From Paenibacillus sp. FSL H7-0357 (lineage in GTDB: Bacteria; Bacillota; Bacilli; Paenibacillales; Paenibacillaceae): a stretch of DNA of 64,000 bases. The notes below the pieces were generated by a model. The model worked only from the letters and a program-made list of their open reading frames with translations, ran no database searches and was not told where the DNA came from. This document shows positions 18,668 through 25,925 of the stretch, one piece after another (position 1 is the stretch's first letter; each line of letters starts with the position of its first letter). The position numbers and the translations under genes are program-made. The DNA lies in NCBI RefSeq assembly GCF_000758525.1, contig NZ_CP009241.1, positions 4,526,001-4,590,000 of the forward strand, in the 5' to 3' direction.

Positions 18668-20416
18668 TCAAGCATCCAGCCGTTGTACATTGAACAGCCG
18701 GGCGTAACTTCCGTCAAGCGCCATAAGCCCTTCGTGGGTCCCCCGCTCGGTGATCTCTCCATTCTCCAGCACAACAATCTGGTCTGCATGGGTAATCGTG
18801 GACAGTCTGTGGGCGACAATCAGCGTTGTGCGCTCGGATGAAAGCGACTGGAGCGCCTGCTGGATCAGATGCTCCGATTCCAGGTCCAGTGCCGAGGTAG
18901 CCTCGTCAAGAATAAGCACCTTCGGGTCCTTGAGAAATACCCGCGCAATCGCCACGCGCTGTTTCTGGCCTCCCGACAGCTTCACCCCCCGCTCTCCTAC
19001 CTCAGTATCATAGCCATCAGGAAGCTGCATGATGAAATCATGCGCGTTAGCCGCCTGTGCTGCGGAGACAATTTCCGCCTCACCAGCCGCCGGATTGCCG
19101 AAGAGAATATTCTCGCGCACCGAACCGCTGAACAGGAAATTATCCTGCAGTACCATGCCGACAGTCCGCCGCAGACTCTCCTGCGTCAGCCCCCGGATAT
19201 CATGCCCGTCCATTCGCAGATTGCCTTCACTGATATCATAGAACCGCGGGATCAGACTGATTAGAGAGGACTTTCCCCCGCCGCTCATCCCTACAAAGGC
19301 CACCGTCTGTCCGGGGTTTATCCGCAGATTAATATCCTTCAGCACATATTCGTTCTCATCGCCATATTTGAACCATACCTGATCGAACTCTATATCTCCT
19401 GTCGGATTGTTCAGCGGCTTTGCTCCAGGCTGATCGACGATATCGTAAGGTTCGTCCAATAGCTCCATGACCCGCTCCAGCGATGCGGAGGCCTGAGTCA
19501 ACACGGTGGAGGAATTAATCAGCCGCCGCAGCGGGGCATACATCCGGTCCAGGTAACCGAAGAAGGCAACAAAGGTACCCAGCGTCAGATTGCCGTGTAT
19601 CACCTGATATCCCCCATAACCGATCACAAGCAGCGGGGCGATGTCCGTTAAGGTATTGATAATAGCAAAAGTAACGGCGTTCCAGCGCGTTTGGGCCATC
19701 GCCTTTTCCAGAAACTTGCCGTTGATAGCCTCAAATTGCTTCTGGTCCACCCGCTCCATCGTGAAGCTGCGGATAATCGCAATGCCCTGAATCCGCTCAT
19801 GCAAATAGCCTTGAATCGCTGCCAGCGCCTGGGAACGGTCCTTGGTCAGCAGCTTGAGCCGCTTATAAAGTGTGTTCACGGCAATGCCGTACAGCGGCAG
19901 GATGGCTATGGATACGAGCGCCAGCACCGGATTGAGGTAGAACATGAAACCTAGTGCAAAGACGAGCGTGAACATATCCAGCCAGACGTTCATCATCCCG
20001 ACTTCCACGAGATTCTTTGACTGCTCCACATCATTGATGAATCTGGATATGGCCTCGCCTACCTTTGTATTCTGATAGTAACGCAGTGACAGGCGCTGCA
20101 AGTGGCTGTACAGCTTGTTGCGCATGTCGAACAGCACTTTGCTTGTGATCAGCTGTGCAAAATACTGACGGAAATACTCAACAGGACCTCTGACAATGAC
20201 AAACAGGAATAATGCGCCTCCGAGGATATACATCAGTTTCGAGACGCGTTCCGCGACAGTCAGTACGGAGTTGCTCAGAAGATCATCCACCACATATTTC
20301 AGAATCAGCGGCAGTGTTAGCGGAATGCTAAATTTGATCATGCCGATAATCAGCGTCAGCACAATCCATTTCATATAAGGCCGGACAAAAACAAAATAAG
20401 ATTTCCATTGTTTCAC
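18668..20416 (-). CDS. ABC exporter, fused permease-ATPase (MsbA/YgaD-like)
   Basis: A half-transporter that should work as a homodimer to export lipids or drugs. In the 582 residues, six membrane helices span about 15-320 and the ATPase about 340-580: Walker A GMSGGGKSS at 376-384, signature LSGGQ at 480-484, Walker B LILDEATSALD at 501-511 with an intact catalytic Glu, and the switch His in VAHRLS near 535. Size and layout fit YgaD/BmrA-type exporters. It stands alone; the MerR gene beyond its terminator could control it but no operator is visible here. Confidence 0.9.
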   Translation of the reverse strand: MKQWKSYFVFVRPYMKWIVLTLIIGMIKFSIPLTLPLILKYVVDDLLSNSVLTVAERVSKLMYILGGALFLFVIVRGPVEYFRQYFAQLITSKVLFDMRNKLYSHLQRLSLRYYQNTKVGEAISRFINDVEQSKNLVEVGMMNVWLDMFTLVFALGFMFYLNPVLALVSIAILPLYGIAVNTLYKRLKLLTKDRSQALAAIQGYLHERIQGIAIIRSFTMERVDQKQFEAINGKFLEKAMAQTRWNAVTFAIINTLTDIAPLLVIGYGGYQVIHGNLTLGTFVAFFGYLDRMYAPLRRLINSSTVLTQASASLERVMELLDEPYDIVDQPGAKPLNNPTGDIEFDQVWFKYGDENEYVLKDINLRINPGQTVAFVGMSGGGKSSLISLIPRFYDISEGNLRMDGHDIRGLTQESLRRTVGMVLQDNFLFSGSVRENILFGNPAAGEAEIVSAAQAANAHDFIMQLPDGYDTEVGERGVKLSGGQKQRVAIARVFLKDPKVLILDEATSALDLESEHLIQQALQSLSSERTTLIVAHRLSTITHADQIVVLENGEITERGTHEGLMALDGSYARLFNVQRLDA

Positions 20417-21626: not shown

Positions 21627-21656
21627 TTGACAATTCTTAACGGCGGATGATAAACT
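21627..21656 (+). promoter_or_regulatory. Promoter of the bmrCD-like leader
   Basis: TTGACA at 21627-21632 and TAAACT at 21651-21656 with 18 bases between. It would give a transcript that starts about 50 bases before the leader ORF. Confidence 0.5.
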
Positions 21657-21713
21657 CTGAACATAACGAAGCGTCTTCAAGTTATTACCAAAACTAAGGA
21701 AAGGGTGAGCGCG

Positions 21714-21806
21714 GTGTTTAACCTTGTTAAAGTTGATTTTTATACTATTGTCGGCAACTGTACACAACTGAATACCAAAGCAGCCCAAGTAGTGGAAAGC
21801 ACCTGA
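21714..21806 (+). CDS. Leader peptide of the bmrCD-like operon (BmrB-like)
   Basis: A 30-codon ORF with a GTG start behind AAGGAAAGGGTGA. The peptide starts MFNLVKVDFYTIVGNC and ends in VVEST; it has no signal sequence. Its TGA stop lies inside the 5' arm of an RNA hairpin (21801-21844), which is followed by a second hairpin, an alternative pairing and an intrinsic terminator before the exporter genes. In Bacillus subtilis the bmrCD exporter is preceded by the leader gene bmrB, whose translation controls a terminator; the arrangement here is the same in kind. Sequence homology to BmrB was not tested. Confidence 0.6.
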   Translation: MFNLVKVDFYTIVGNCTQLNTKAAQVVEST

Positions 21807-21947
21807 AGAATCATGTATGTAACGCGTACATCTTGATTTCAGGTTATGCAAGTCTCTTCCATGTCTCTGTGCTGTCTTAGCACCGTGGACATGATAACTG
21901 CTGTATATCACAGGCATATCATCCGTTTTCGGATGATATGCCTTTTT
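21801..21947 (+). promoter_or_regulatory. Transcription attenuator of the bmrCD-like operon
   Basis: Four elements are visible in order. Stem 1: ACCTGAA 21801-21807 with TTCAGGT 21838-21844, overlapping the leader stop. Stem 2: CATGTC 21860-21865 with GACATG 21888-21893, plus GTGCT/AGCAC inside. Terminator: GGCATATCATCC 21913-21924 with its complement 21931-21942, then TTTTT. An alternative pairing of GGA..TGATA (21887-21896) with TATCATCC (21917-21924) would break both stem 2 and the terminator, acting as an antiterminator. Ribosome position on the leader would select between them. Confidence 0.65.
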
Positions 21948-22028
21948 GTATGCTGTTAAGAGCTGAACCACTATTCGCACCATTCCAACAGCCGGCAATC
22001 AATTCAATACGAAAGGAAGGGATTTCCC

Positions 22029-23777
22029 TTGTTCTCCGTTCTCCGAAATCTCGGTTGGTTCTTCCGCCGGGAGAAAAGGCGCTACACAGTAGGCCTGATT
22101 TTATTAATTGTAGTTGGTGTGCTTGAACTGCTGCCTCCTCGTCTGCTCGGCAATGCCATTGACGAGATCGTACGCGGCTCGATAACCGCCGGTTCCCTAA
22201 TGAAGTATATTGGCCTGATCGTCCTCATGCTTCTAATTATTTATTGGATCACCTACATATGGATGCATAAGCTGTTCGGGGGTTCCAACCTTGTGGAGCG
22301 TCTGCTCCGCTCCCGCTTTATGAATCATCTTATGACGATGACGCCTTCCTTCTTCGAGCGCAACCGTACCGGTGACCTCATGGCCCGGGCAACCAATGAT
22401 ATCCGTGCCGTATCGGCAACCGTCGGCTTCGGGATGCTGACTCTGGTGGATTCAACGGTTTACCTTACCGTTGTGCTGCTGGCCATGGGCTTTCTGGTCA
22501 GCTGGAAGCTGACACTCGCGGCAGTGCTGCCGCTTCCGCTGATCGCCATCGCCATGATTTACTATGGCAAGGCCATTCATGACCGGTACAGCCTGGCACA
22601 GGATGCCTTCGGAGATATGAACGACCAGGTACTGGAATCCGTATCCGGTATTCGCGTGATCCGGGCCTACGTACAGGAACGTATGGACGAGAAACGATTC
22701 TCCGACATTACGGAGGATGTATACCGCAAAAATATGGCGGTAGCCCGCGTTGATGCCTTTTTTGAACCAACGATCCGCTTTTGTGTGGGACTAAGCTATA
22801 TTATCGCGCTTACCTACGGCATTTATCTTGTATTCCGCAATCAAATTACACTTGGAGATTTGGTTTCCTTCAATATGTATCTGGGGATGATCGTGTGGCC
22901 GATGTTCGCGATCGGTGAGCTGATCAATATTATGCAGCGCGGCGGAGCATCCCTTGAACGGATCGATGAGACGCTGAATTCCCGTCCTGATGTTGAGGAT
23001 ATTGCTCATCCGGTTCCGGTTGAATACCCGACCCGTATTGAGCTAAAGGATGTAACGTTCCGTTACCCTACTTCGACCATCGACAATCTAAGCGGCGTCA
23101 GCTTCTCCCTCTCCCAGGGACAGACGCTCGGGGTAGTCGGACGCACAGGCAGCGGCAAATCAACCTTGCTGAAACAGCTGCTTCATGAATATCCGTCCGG
23201 TAAAGGTGACATCCTGATCTCCGGTGTGCCGATTGGGCAAATTGCCCTCGACCGCCTGCACGGCTGGATGGGTTATGTGCCGCAGGAGCAAATTCTGTTC
23301 TCCAAATCGGTTCGTGAGAACATCCAGTTCGGGTACAATAATGCCAGCGACGAACGGATTATGGAAGCCATCACGGCAGCGGCTTTCCAGAATGACCTCG
23401 GTACCTTGTCTGACGGCCTGGATACCTTAGTGGGTGAACGCGGTGTCTCTCTTTCCGGAGGCCAGAAACAGCGCGTCTCGATCTCCAGAGCCTTTATCGC
23501 AAATCCCGATATTCTGATCCTGGATGATGCGCTTTCTGCCGTTGACGCACGTACAGAAGCCAAAATTATCGAGAACATCCGCTCGGAGCGTGCCGGCAAA
23601 ACCACGCTGATCTCCACTCACCGTCTCTCTGCTATTGAGCATGCCGATCTGATCGTTGTACTGGATAACGGACATATAACAGAGCGGGGCACGCATCAGG
23701 AGCTGCTGAACATGAACGGCTGGTATCGTGAGCAGTTCGACCGCCAGCAGGTGGAGAACAATTTAACGAATGAATAA
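22029..23777 (+). CDS. bmrC: Heterodimeric ABC multidrug exporter subunit, BmrC-like
   Basis: One half of a two-gene multidrug exporter. The 582-residue length agrees with BmrC (585). Six membrane helices (about 20-300) precede the ATPase domain with Walker A GRTGSGKST near 368-376, signature LSGGQ near 477 and Walker B LILDDALSAVD, where the usual catalytic Glu is Asp. That substitution is characteristic of the degenerate-site subunit in heterodimeric exporters such as BmrCD and TM287/288. The start is TTG behind AAAGGAAGGG. The partner gene follows 54 bases later. The upstream attenuator should make expression depend on leader translation. Confidence 0.9.
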   Translation: MFSVLRNLGWFFRREKRRYTVGLILLIVVGVLELLPPRLLGNAIDEIVRGSITAGSLMKYIGLIVLMLLIIYWITYIWMHKLFGGSNLVERLLRSRFMNHLMTMTPSFFERNRTGDLMARATNDIRAVSATVGFGMLTLVDSTVYLTVVLLAMGFLVSWKLTLAAVLPLPLIAIAMIYYGKAIHDRYSLAQDAFGDMNDQVLESVSGIRVIRAYVQERMDEKRFSDITEDVYRKNMAVARVDAFFEPTIRFCVGLSYIIALTYGIYLVFRNQITLGDLVSFNMYLGMIVWPMFAIGELINIMQRGGASLERIDETLNSRPDVEDIAHPVPVEYPTRIELKDVTFRYPTSTIDNLSGVSFSLSQGQTLGVVGRTGSGKSTLLKQLLHEYPSGKGDILISGVPIGQIALDRLHGWMGYVPQEQILFSKSVRENIQFGYNNASDERIMEAITAAAFQNDLGTLSDGLDTLVGERGVSLSGGQKQRVSISRAFIANPDILILDDALSAVDARTEAKIIENIRSERAGKTTLISTHRLSAIEHADLIVVLDNGHITERGTHQELLNMNGWYREQFDRQQVENNLTNE

Positions 23778-23831
23778 ATGATGAGCATAGGCTTTTTGAA
23801 GCTCCCTAAAAACGTTTAGGAGGTGTCACCG

Positions 23832-25925
23832 TTGACACAAAGTACGGGCAAACGCCTGCTGCAGTACGCATTAACTGCCAAAAAAACATTTATCGCAGCA
23901 CTACTGCTGCTTACTATCGGAGTGGCAGCCGAGCTGGCAGGGCCTTTTATCGCCAAGAGCATGATCGACAATCATCTGCTGGCCATAGAGAAGCCCTACT
24001 TCCAGACGGACTCTTCCAAGGATGCCGCTGAATATAATAATTCCTTCTACAAACGCGGTGACCGGTTTGCCGAAGGCGAAGCCAAAGGCCAGGAAATCCG
24101 CCTGCTACAGGTCGGAAAAAGCTTCTACTTCATCAATGAAGCCGTAGCGCAGCCTGCAGGCGAGCGGACCTTCCGTGACGGAGAGATGCATATCCAATAC
24201 GGAGACACTCTGAGTGTCTATCCTGCCGAGAAGCTCTCGGCAAATGAATTATTCGCTTTTTACAAACCTGAATTCCCCGGCATTTATAAACTGGTAGGAC
24301 TGTACGCGATATTCCTGGTCATCTCGATCATAGCGGAATTCGGTAAAACCTACTGGCTGCAATCGTCGGCCAATCAGGTCATCCGCAAGCTGCGGACCGA
24401 TGTGTACGCCCATATCCAGCGGCTGCCTGTTTATTTCTTCGACAATCTGCCTGCCGGTAAGGTCGTCTCCCGGGTTACGAACGATACGGAAGCGGTCAAG
24501 GATCTGTTCATAGCCGTATTATCCAACTTCAGCACAGGGATTATCAATATCATCGGCGTTTATGTCGCCCTGTTCCTGCTGGATATTCACCTCGGACTGG
24601 TCAGTCTGTTCATTGTCCCGATTGTGATCCTCTGGATCGTGCTGTACCGCAAAGTTGCCACCAAATATAATACCATCATCCGTTCGCGGCTTAGTGAGAT
24701 CAACGCCATCATCAATGAATCGATTCAAGGGATGTCGATCATCCGCATTTTCCGCCGCCAGAAGCAGAGCAGTGAAGAATTCGAGCGCCTGAACGATGAT
24801 TATCTGAAATATCAGAATAAAATGCTCAACCTGAATGCCTTCACTTCCCACAACCTGGTGAACTCGCTGCGCAGCCTCTCCTTTGTACTGGTATTATGGT
24901 ACTTTGGATTCGGCAGCCTGGATGGCTCTACCTTTGTGTCGCTGGGTGTGCTGTACGCCTTCGTCGACGTGCTCGGACGGATGTTCCAGCCAATTACCGG
25001 GATGGTCAACCAACTGGCCAATCTGGATTCCTCGATGGTCTCTGCCGGCCGCGTATTTACACTTATGGATGAACCCGGCGAACCGGTGACCGATGGTTCC
25101 ATGCCGCGTTACAAGGGAGATGTGGTGTTTAAAGACGTTTCCTTTGCTTACAAAAAAGACTTCGTCCTGCGCGACATTTCCTTTGAGGCCCGCTCTGGTG
25201 AAACTGTCGCTCTGGTGGGACATACCGGCTCCGGTAAAAGCTCGATCATCAATCTCCTGTTCCGCTTCTATGATCCGCAGCGCGGAAGCATTACCATTGA
25301 TGGTCAAGAAGTTAAAGATCTGCCGAAGCAGTGGCTGCGAAGCCATATGGGAATTGTGCTTCAGGATCCTTACTTGTTCACAGGGACCATCGCTTCCAAT
25401 GTCAGTCTCGGGGACGAGCGGATCACACGGGAGCGGGTGGAACGGGCACTGCGGGAAGTCGGTGCGGATAAGCTGCTGTCTCATCTGCCCAAGGGCTTCG
25501 ACGAACCGGTGGTGGAGAAAGGTAGCACGCTTTCGGCCGGCCAGCGTCAGCTGATTTCATTTGCCCGGGCGTTGTCCTTTGATCCGGCCATTCTTATCCT
25601 GGATGAAGCGACCTCCAACATCGATACGGAGACAGAAAGCATCATTCAGGAAGCGCTGGAGGTGCTGAAGAAAGGCCGCACCACCTTCATCATCGCTCAC
25701 CGCTTATCCACAATCCGCAGTGCGGATCAGATTCTTGTCCTGCATCACGGTGAAATCGTTGAGCGCGGCAGCCATGATGAGCTCATGGCGCTGGGTGGTC
25801 GCTACTTCCGCATGTACCAGCTTCAACTCGGTGCCGGTGCGGAAAACGGAGCTGCGGCCGGCTCGGCTTCCGCATCTTCTTCCGCCTCTGCCGCAGCCCT
25901 GCAGCCTTCGTTCAAGCAGGGCTAG
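23832..25925 (+). CDS. bmrD: Heterodimeric ABC multidrug exporter subunit, BmrD-like
   Basis: Partner of the preceding subunit. The protein has 697 residues, longer than most half-transporters because of an extra segment of about 110 residues between membrane helices 1 and 2 (about 47-155), as in BmrD. Walker A is GHTGSGKSS near 458-466, Walker B LILDEATSNID carries the catalytic Glu, and the signature is the non-canonical LSAGQ, which pairs with the Asp-bearing partner to form the degenerate site. The C-terminus ends in a Ala/Ser-rich tail. I prefer TTG 23832 with AGGAGG nine bases upstream over GTG 23823, which would overlap that site. Confidence 0.9.
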   Translation: MTQSTGKRLLQYALTAKKTFIAALLLLTIGVAAELAGPFIAKSMIDNHLLAIEKPYFQTDSSKDAAEYNNSFYKRGDRFAEGEAKGQEIRLLQVGKSFYFINEAVAQPAGERTFRDGEMHIQYGDTLSVYPAEKLSANELFAFYKPEFPGIYKLVGLYAIFLVISIIAEFGKTYWLQSSANQVIRKLRTDVYAHIQRLPVYFFDNLPAGKVVSRVTNDTEAVKDLFIAVLSNFSTGIINIIGVYVALFLLDIHLGLVSLFIVPIVILWIVLYRKVATKYNTIIRSRLSEINAIINESIQGMSIIRIFRRQKQSSEEFERLNDDYLKYQNKMLNLNAFTSHNLVNSLRSLSFVLVLWYFGFGSLDGSTFVSLGVLYAFVDVLGRMFQPITGMVNQLANLDSSMVSAGRVFTLMDEPGEPVTDGSMPRYKGDVVFKDVSFAYKKDFVLRDISFEARSGETVALVGHTGSGKSSIINLLFRFYDPQRGSITIDGQEVKDLPKQWLRSHMGIVLQDPYLFTGTIASNVSLGDERITRERVERALREVGADKLLSHLPKGFDEPVVEKGSTLSAGQRQLISFARALSFDPAILILDEATSNIDTETESIIQEALEVLKKGRTTFIIAHRLSTIRSADQILVLHHGEIVERGSHDELMALGGRYFRMYQLQLGAGAENGAAAGSASASSSASAAALQPSFKQG

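Follow-up and report, generated by a model that had tools for sequence, protein, structure and literature searches.

How the progress of a ribosome along a short leader could decide whether a multidrug exporter operon is transcribed is the question raised by a locus of Paenibacillus sp. FSL H7-0357 (genome 7.69 Mb), which was analysed within a window of 64,000 nt (the whole stretch of DNA considered here; NZ_CP009241.1, 4,526,001-4,590,000, forward strand; positions below are those of the window). Directly 3' of the attenuator region lie genes which, from their ORF positions and their best matches among solved structures, encode a BmrC/BmrD exporter (Table 1), in agreement with the exporter type named in a first-pass annotation. 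That annotation also proposed that a slowed ribosome on the leader switches the operon on. The proposal stands insofar as the region is a conserved attenuator coupled to a leader ORF, in which folding calculations favour the antiterminator when a ribosome is in mid-leader, but the hairpins and antiterminator then described do not bring the ribosome into contact with hairpin 2. This contact is supplied by two pairings absent from that annotation, termed here A:B and B:C. On the evidence set out below, we consider it likely that the region is a ribosome-mediated transcription attenuator acting as a relay of mutually exclusive pairings.

Table 1. Features of the attenuator region and the exporter genes (window positions).
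Feature	Position	Strand	Remarks
Promoter TTGACA-18-TAAACT	21627-21656	+	10/12 consensus matches
Segment A: leader Shine-Dalgarno AAAGGGTGA and GTG start	21700-21720	+	pairs with B
Leader ORF, GTG 21714 to TGA 21804-21806, 30 codons and stop, MFNLVKVDFYTIVGNCTQLNTKAAQVVEST	21714-21806	+	downstream of AAAGGGTGA
Segment B: leader codons, partner of A or C	21769-21797	+	
Hairpin 1, leader stop codon in 5' arm	about 21802-21843	+	72.3% of cells paired
Segment C: hairpin 2 5' arm and flank, alternative partner of B	21857-21876	+	
Hairpin 2 (C:D), anti-antiterminator, without U-tract	21860-21893	+	
Segment D: hairpin 2 3' arm and antiterminator strand	21887-21904	+	21891-21896:21917-21922; 21902-21904:21910-21912
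Intrinsic terminator (E:F), 14 pairs 21912-21925:21930-21943, loop of 4, U-tract	21912-21948	+	
bmrC, TTG start	22029-23777	+	best solved-structure match B. subtilis YheI, 822.5 bits
bmrD, GTG start as listed	23823-25925	+	best solved-structure match B. subtilis YheH, 847.9 bits

Layout of the attenuator and the exporter genes

Read from the sequence, a leader ORF with its own ribosome-binding site is placed between promoter and terminator, and its stop codon falls within the first hairpin, as had been noted before. The intrinsic terminator described earlier is also present, but counts 14 base pairs rather than 12. By eye, the proposed alternative pairing of 21887-21896 with 21917-21924 is found as well, joining ATGATA (21891-21896) to TATCAT (21917-21922) and GG (21887-21888) to CC (21923-21924); this antiterminator overlaps, and clashes with, both hairpin 2 and the terminator. 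The attenuator stretch folds at -90.5 kcal/mol (z -4.29), better than 200 of 200 dinucleotide shuffles. A scan of the window with 4227 Rfam families returned no match at gathering score, whether to a riboswitch, a T-box or any other family.

The next BmrC-like protein of the same genome is only 34% identical. A second half-size ABC exporter gene lies nearby on the reverse strand (18668-20416), its closest models being of the MsbA type, at scores below their cut-offs. At 22017-22031, a small hairpin (AAGGGATTTCCCTT) covers the spacer of the bmrC Shine-Dalgarno sequence and the TTG start; AAGGGATTTCCCTTG is kept in several relatives and weakened in others, and the hairpin might add translational control.

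Conservation within the genus and sampling of relatives

Of 61 genomes of the genus (own genome included), 47 gave a BLASTN match to a 421-base region spanning the leader. None of 39 genomes of other genera did so, and a short motif pattern was therefore used instead. This pattern matches 146 of the 392 genomes of the order, chance matches included; among 30 such loci listed (L048-L077), 8 are bmrC leaders and 22 are not. Further motif loci in other genera of the family, picked by a motif variant, precede bmrC in 20 of 20 cases, and in its own genome the leader motif is found once. In addition, the genomes were scanned with B. subtilis BmrC, the named loci being the best 80 of 221. These best 80 include Bacillus, Metabacillus, Peribacillus, Neobacillus, Priestia, Geobacillus, Anoxybacillus, Chengkuizengella, Paenibacillus, Fontibacillus, Saccharibacillus and others, and 78 of them have a short-ORF candidate behind a strong Shine-Dalgarno sequence, some of these candidates being doubtful.

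The genus alignment (A1) comprises 46 of the 47 leaders, L043 being left out because its Shine-Dalgarno sequence differs from the search string. The promoter is kept with the same sequence and spacing in 38/47 relatives and matches at 9/12 positions or more in 44/47. Also kept in relatives are the Shine-Dalgarno sequence AAAGGGTGA, the start codon, a motif like CAAnnGAATACCGAAGCAGCCC, hairpin 2, ATGATA and the terminator. The distance from start codon to motif is a multiple of three in all 46 aligned leaders (51, 48, 57 or 39 bases), and the leader stop lies 17 bases past GCCC in 36 of them.

Two alternative pairings link the leader codons to the switch

Segment B can pair in two ways. In A:B, the Shine-Dalgarno GGGU (21703-21706) and the start region (21713-21720) pair with GCCC (21783-21786) and TGAATACC (21769-21776); in B:C, the leader strand consists of GCAGCC (21780-21785) and GTGGAA (21792-21797), and the opposite strand of the hairpin 2 5' arm with its flank (21857-21875). 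Both helices emerged from pairing probabilities averaged across the 46 relatives. A:B excludes B:C, B:C excludes C:D, C:D excludes D:E and D:E excludes E:F, and these mutual exclusions make the leader a relay that holds either A:B, C:D and E:F (off) or B:C and D:E (on). The elements themselves, their spacing and conservation and the covariation of A:B and B:C emerge from comparison among relatives, as follows.

In the 45 distinct rows of A1, the proportion of cells paired is 87.1% for A:B, 85.5% for B:C, 83.5% for hairpin 2, 94.8% for the antiterminator, 98.6% for the terminator and 72.3% for hairpin 1, and all six helices pair more than every slid version. The number of doubly changed cells was reached in none of 500 shuffles for A:B, hairpin 2, the antiterminator and the terminator, in 5 for B:C and in 15 for hairpin 1. 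A stricter count, of pairs changed on both sides, was reached in 2 of 500 shuffles for hairpin 2, 53 for B:C, 54 for A:B, 93 for the terminator, 107 for hairpin 1 and 295 for the antiterminator, and some slid versions have more doubly changed cells than the true helix (A:B +1, 14 versus 11; B:C -3, 17 versus 8; hairpin 1 +2, 28 versus 18). Because slid versions and stricter counts rival the true helices, the within-genus covariation alone is modest, except for hairpin 2. The outer antiterminator pairs hardly vary within the genus, and the terminator is nearly invariant.

Permutation of pairing partners, which reaches beyond the genus, gives stronger evidence. With Bacillaceae-type and chance loci removed and phylogeny not modelled, 26 distinct B types (one of them, in L152, from Neobacillus) scored 17.0 with their own downstream stretch against 15.0 with those of others, a result as high in 0 of 10,000 permutations and in 0 of 2,000 for each of ten redraws of the representatives. 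Examples of such B:C partners are GAAGTAACC with GGTTACTTC (L176), GGAGCAACC with GGTTGCTTC (L070), GAGCAGCC with GGCTGCTC (L041) and GTGCAGCC with GGTTGCAC (L179). Taken by family, with L139, L141, L148, L155, L159 and L172 omitted for their doubtful leader choice, the A:B permutation gave p 0.0001 for 24 Bacillaceae-type representatives and 0.002 for 33 from Paenibacillaceae, phylogeny again not modelled, and the B:C permutation gave p 0.04 for the Bacillaceae-type set, with 0.93 and 0.87 for two control region pairs. Both A:B and B:C find support in these permutations, for Paenibacillaceae as well as for leaders of the Bacillaceae type. Leader by leader, a single-helix codon-shuffle test reached p<=0.05 in 23/63 cases for A:B and 8/63 for B:C, and a three-way test of A, B and C was significant in 14/27 Bacillaceae-type leaders and in 1/36 from Paenibacillaceae, in which B is split. 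Gapped duplex energies were uninformative for the leader pairings, as shuffled leaders often scored as well.

Bacillaceae-type leaders

In 15 Bacillaceae-type leaders, 41-52 bases separate the start codon from the beginning of B, and the end of B lies 6-28 bases ahead of the stop (16-28 bases in 13 of the 15); the B elements used for this spacing were 12 of the 14 significant by the three-way test, together with four chosen by eye, of which one could not be placed. Two or more plausible terminators precede bmrC in 18 of 28 Bacillaceae-type leaders (L117, L119, L120, L128-L131, L133, L136-L138, L140, L142, L143, L146, L147, L150 and L169), the remainder having a doubtful second terminator (1), a single terminator (6) or none found (3). 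The second of the tandem terminators often resembles the Paenibacillus terminator (GGCATATCG...), and the Paenibacillus hairpin 2 occupies the place of the Bacillaceae-type first terminator, but without a U-tract. Any ancestral order of these elements, like D:E pairing outside the genus, was judged by eye. For two leaders, from Geobacillus and Anoxybacillus (L139, L141), the upstream region is longer and contains GC-rich hairpins separated by small ORFs, and a terminator scan after the chosen leader found none in either.

Predicted switching

In the proposed mechanism, A would pair with B (codons 19-25) when no ribosome is present, hairpin 2 (C:D) would form and the terminator (E:F) would halt transcription. 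A ribosome slowed ahead of B would cover or open A and leave B free to pair with C, the 5' arm of hairpin 2; D, once released, would pair with E, the 5' arm of the terminator, and the polymerase would read into bmrCD. A ribosome that reaches the stop codon would cover the 3' half of B, and C:D and E:F would consequently form. The signal would be slow translation, brought about most likely by translation inhibitors; that drugs induce the operon here we infer from Reilman 2014. The kinetics and the direction of switching in cells are likewise inferred.

Equilibrium folding of the window sequence gives the antiterminator a probability of 0.07 in the free RNA. At ribosome leading edges from 21720 to 21765 the values are 0.22, 0.12 (at 21730), 0.27, 0.36, 0.19, 0.30 and 0.27, rising to 0.56, 0.84 and 0.53 at 21770, 21775 and 21780, then falling to about 0.42 at 21785-21792 and to 0.02-0.07 at 21800-21812 (0.02 at 21806). 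With the leading edge of the ribosome taken as 15 bases beyond the first base of the P-site codon, the on-state falls at about codons 15-18; in the window it is thus predicted for a mid-leader ribosome only.

For the genus, mean pairing probabilities were taken from 46 relatives, each RNA being cut within the loop of the terminator. The mean antiterminator probability shows a plateau of about 0.60-0.71 for codons 8-22 and drops to 0.44-0.49 near the stop; it is 0.49 with the ribosome at the first codons and 0.60 with no ribosome, so that the default state is not clearly off genus-wide. In a single-run comparison of the 46 relatives, the antiterminator stood at 0.69 with an early ribosome versus 0.46 with the ribosome at the stop, and the base of hairpin 2 went from 0.46 to 0.82. 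When the leader segment was shuffled (30 data sets), the antiterminator reached at most 0.57 and hairpin 2 was at least 0.75. The antiterminator was higher in the early state in 36/46 relatives and lower by more than 0.1 in 5/46. The leader Shine-Dalgarno sequence (21702-21709) also pairs with the terminator 5' arm (21917-21925), at 0.88 in the window and 0.35 as the genus mean, which may be an artefact of cutting the RNA at the terminator loop.

For 25 of 28 Bacillaceae-type leaders, B:C was computed as pairing of B with the 5' arm of the first detected terminator (L139, L141 and L148, for which no terminator was found, were left out). B:C was more probable with an early ribosome than with none in 25/25 (means 0.92 versus 0.41), and with the early ribosome it exceeded the value for codon-shuffled B (mean 0.74) in 22/25. 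B:C is at least 0.79 for leading edges 15-48 bases past the start and 0.42 at 60, an on-state that would extend from the start codon onward and fade by about codon 16.

RNA or peptide as the conserved entity

The claim that the leader peptide differs from that of B. subtilis is correct, but what is conserved appears to be the RNA of those codons. In 46/46 genus leaders the CAA, AAT and GCC motif codons are fixed at their third positions, and the codon following GCC always starts with C, yet encodes L, Q, R, P or H. Conservation here thus looks like an RNA constraint, in which the frame would be preserved so as to place the stop codon. By eye, the listed leader peptides contain no run of codons for one amino acid of the trp type.

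These observations bear on the possibility of a drug-specific arrest peptide, in which the conserved Q-x-N-T-E-A-A would stall the antibiotic-bound ribosome at one site, as in erm and cat leaders, and the RNA switch would follow. In its favour, 79 of 90 distinct leaders carry the motif in frame, QxNT hardly varies within the genus, and the folding optimum in the window lies just ahead of codons 18-20 (QLN). Against it stand the fixed third positions and the C-initial codon with its five different residues, together with the 11 of 90 leaders in which the motif is out of frame. The latter include at least four Paenibacillaceae bmrC leaders with other peptides (L072, L161, L179, L183), besides five from Bacillaceae (L114, L116, L147, L148, L188), one from the genus (L043) and L159, which looks like a chance match in a neighbouring gene. 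As the covariation of A:B and B:C accounts for the conservation, an arrest peptide appears unlikely.

Hairpin 1 could instead be the sole target of the ribosome: opened by a ribosome at the stop codon, its freed 3' arm would disturb hairpin 2. It does hold the stop codon, is paired in most cells, and in the window the antiterminator probability returns to 0.53 for a leading edge at 21819, with the RNA from there on left to fold, a value that misfits the relay. This gain is absent over the 46 relatives (0.49 at 21819 versus 0.46 at 21806), several Bacillaceae-type first terminators start about 10-40 bases from the stop and leave little or no room for such a hairpin, and the operon would be turned on at normal completion of the leader, all of which renders this explanation quite improbable. 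Least probable is that the ORF is incidental and that a short RNA simply ends at a constitutive terminator, or that a riboswitch senses a ligand here: the stable, nearly invariant terminator would suit it, but the window has no Rfam match, the Shine-Dalgarno sequence and start are conserved, indels ahead of the motif are multiples of three in 46/46 leaders, and leader translation is required in B. subtilis, according to the available text of PMC4191407.

The leader frame of B. subtilis bmrCD

In the portions of the report available to us, Reilman 2014 (PMC4191407) finds that attenuation of bmrCD needs translation of the leader and ribosome-bound drug, the inducers being lincomycin, erythromycin and chloramphenicol, and places the terminator inside the 53-codon bmrB, with all structures in bmrB nucleotides 60-162. 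At the locus L196 (genome G708), the BmrC sequence shows full identity to the solved B. subtilis chain across 436 residues, and the bmrB frame of the annotated type, a GTG ORF of 53 codons and 162 bases whose end lies 119 bases from bmrC, fits the published description. An ATG 16 bases upstream of the bmrB GTG opens, in another frame, an ORF of 23 codons, whose Shine-Dalgarno energy is -14.4 kcal/mol versus -5.2 for the bmrB GTG. In the B. subtilis group (L196, L106-L112, L193-L195), all 11 distinct leaders keep the ATG ORF, of 23-32 codons, intact; 7 of them have the annotated bmrB GTG and 5 a frame of 52-61 codons with that GTG, and in L110 and L111 an ATG could open 36 codons of the annotated bmrB frame.

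As the ATG ORF is intact throughout and the bmrB frame is near full length in only 5 of 11, the annotated bmrB frame is probably misannotated and not the leader ORF. In the predicted fold of L196, leader codons mask the Shine-Dalgarno sequence of the ATG ORF, and these codons pair with the next hairpin once the start is removed. Going by the published placement in the accessible text (PMC4191407), bmrB nucleotides 60-162 begin just past the stop of the short ATG ORF. The same text reports no signal from single-copy BmrB-GFP and a signal from a plasmid, so that the annotated frame can be translated, and describes a no-start bmrB construct that also altered alternative starts or ribosome-binding sites in the 5'UTR and hence cannot tell the two ORFs apart. 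A literature search of titles and abstracts found none on bmrCD leaders outside B. subtilis or on another bmrB frame.

A wider reading, which we hold at about even confidence, would be that Bacillaceae and Paenibacillaceae share one attenuator, which, being common to both, probably predates the split of the families; that a domino-like relay (A:B, C:D, E:F versus B:C, D:E) begins with the ribosome-binding site of the leader itself and reads the progress of the ribosome whatever the peptide; and that the published BmrB is a misannotated frame overlapping the true leader of 23 codons.

Comparison with known systems

The Paenibacillus attenuator very probably works like, and is homologous to, that of B. 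subtilis bmrCD. Shared with bmrB-bmrCD are the orthologous exporter and a leader with terminator, antiterminator and anti-antiterminator (as described in the available text of PMC4191407), and the A:B and B:C logic is predicted in L196, whose BmrC is identical to the B. subtilis chain. As far as that text goes, the published terminator lies inside bmrB, whereas here the leader stop is at 21806 and the terminator begins at 21912, a difference that probably reflects placement on a misannotated frame. Compared with the published bmrB in the same text, the 30-codon Paenibacillus ORF ends before hairpin 2, its Shine-Dalgarno sequence takes part in the switch and hairpin 1 is added.

In the B. subtilis vmlR leader, too, stalling in an upstream ORF blocks an anti-antiterminator, and an antiterminator replaces an intrinsic terminator (PMC9226507, available part); the ORF there is of only three codons (MIN) with a single-stranded Shine-Dalgarno sequence, the target gene is another and an extra hairpin covers the vmlR Shine-Dalgarno sequence. 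The patAB genes of S. pneumoniae likewise encode an ABC exporter behind a predicted terminator, antiterminator and anti-antiterminator; in the accessible portion of PMC4319486 the term 'leader peptide' does not occur and induction is tied to fluoroquinolones or DNA damage. The available part of a review (PMC5418344) was also compared.

For a multidrug ABC exporter already described as controlled by a leader, the relay would supply the link between ribosome and switch. It could also explain what the bmrCD anti-antiterminator does, a role called unclear by its authors in the consulted part of PMC4191407. The drug is predicted to be sensed through a reading frame different from the annotated bmrB, and this could be relevant to the missing signal of single-copy BmrB-GFP and to the codon-recoding results that this source reports. 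The relay also offers a search rule for translation sensors independent of the peptide, namely mutual complementarity of A, B and C with a roughly fixed spacing of start, B and stop. A likeness in logic also links it to the E. coli trp attenuator, in which the position of the ribosome sets alternating pairings of segments and which is off without translation. Compared with trp, the leader described here has no regulatory codon run, uses its own ribosome-binding site as a switching segment and has one more step in the relay.
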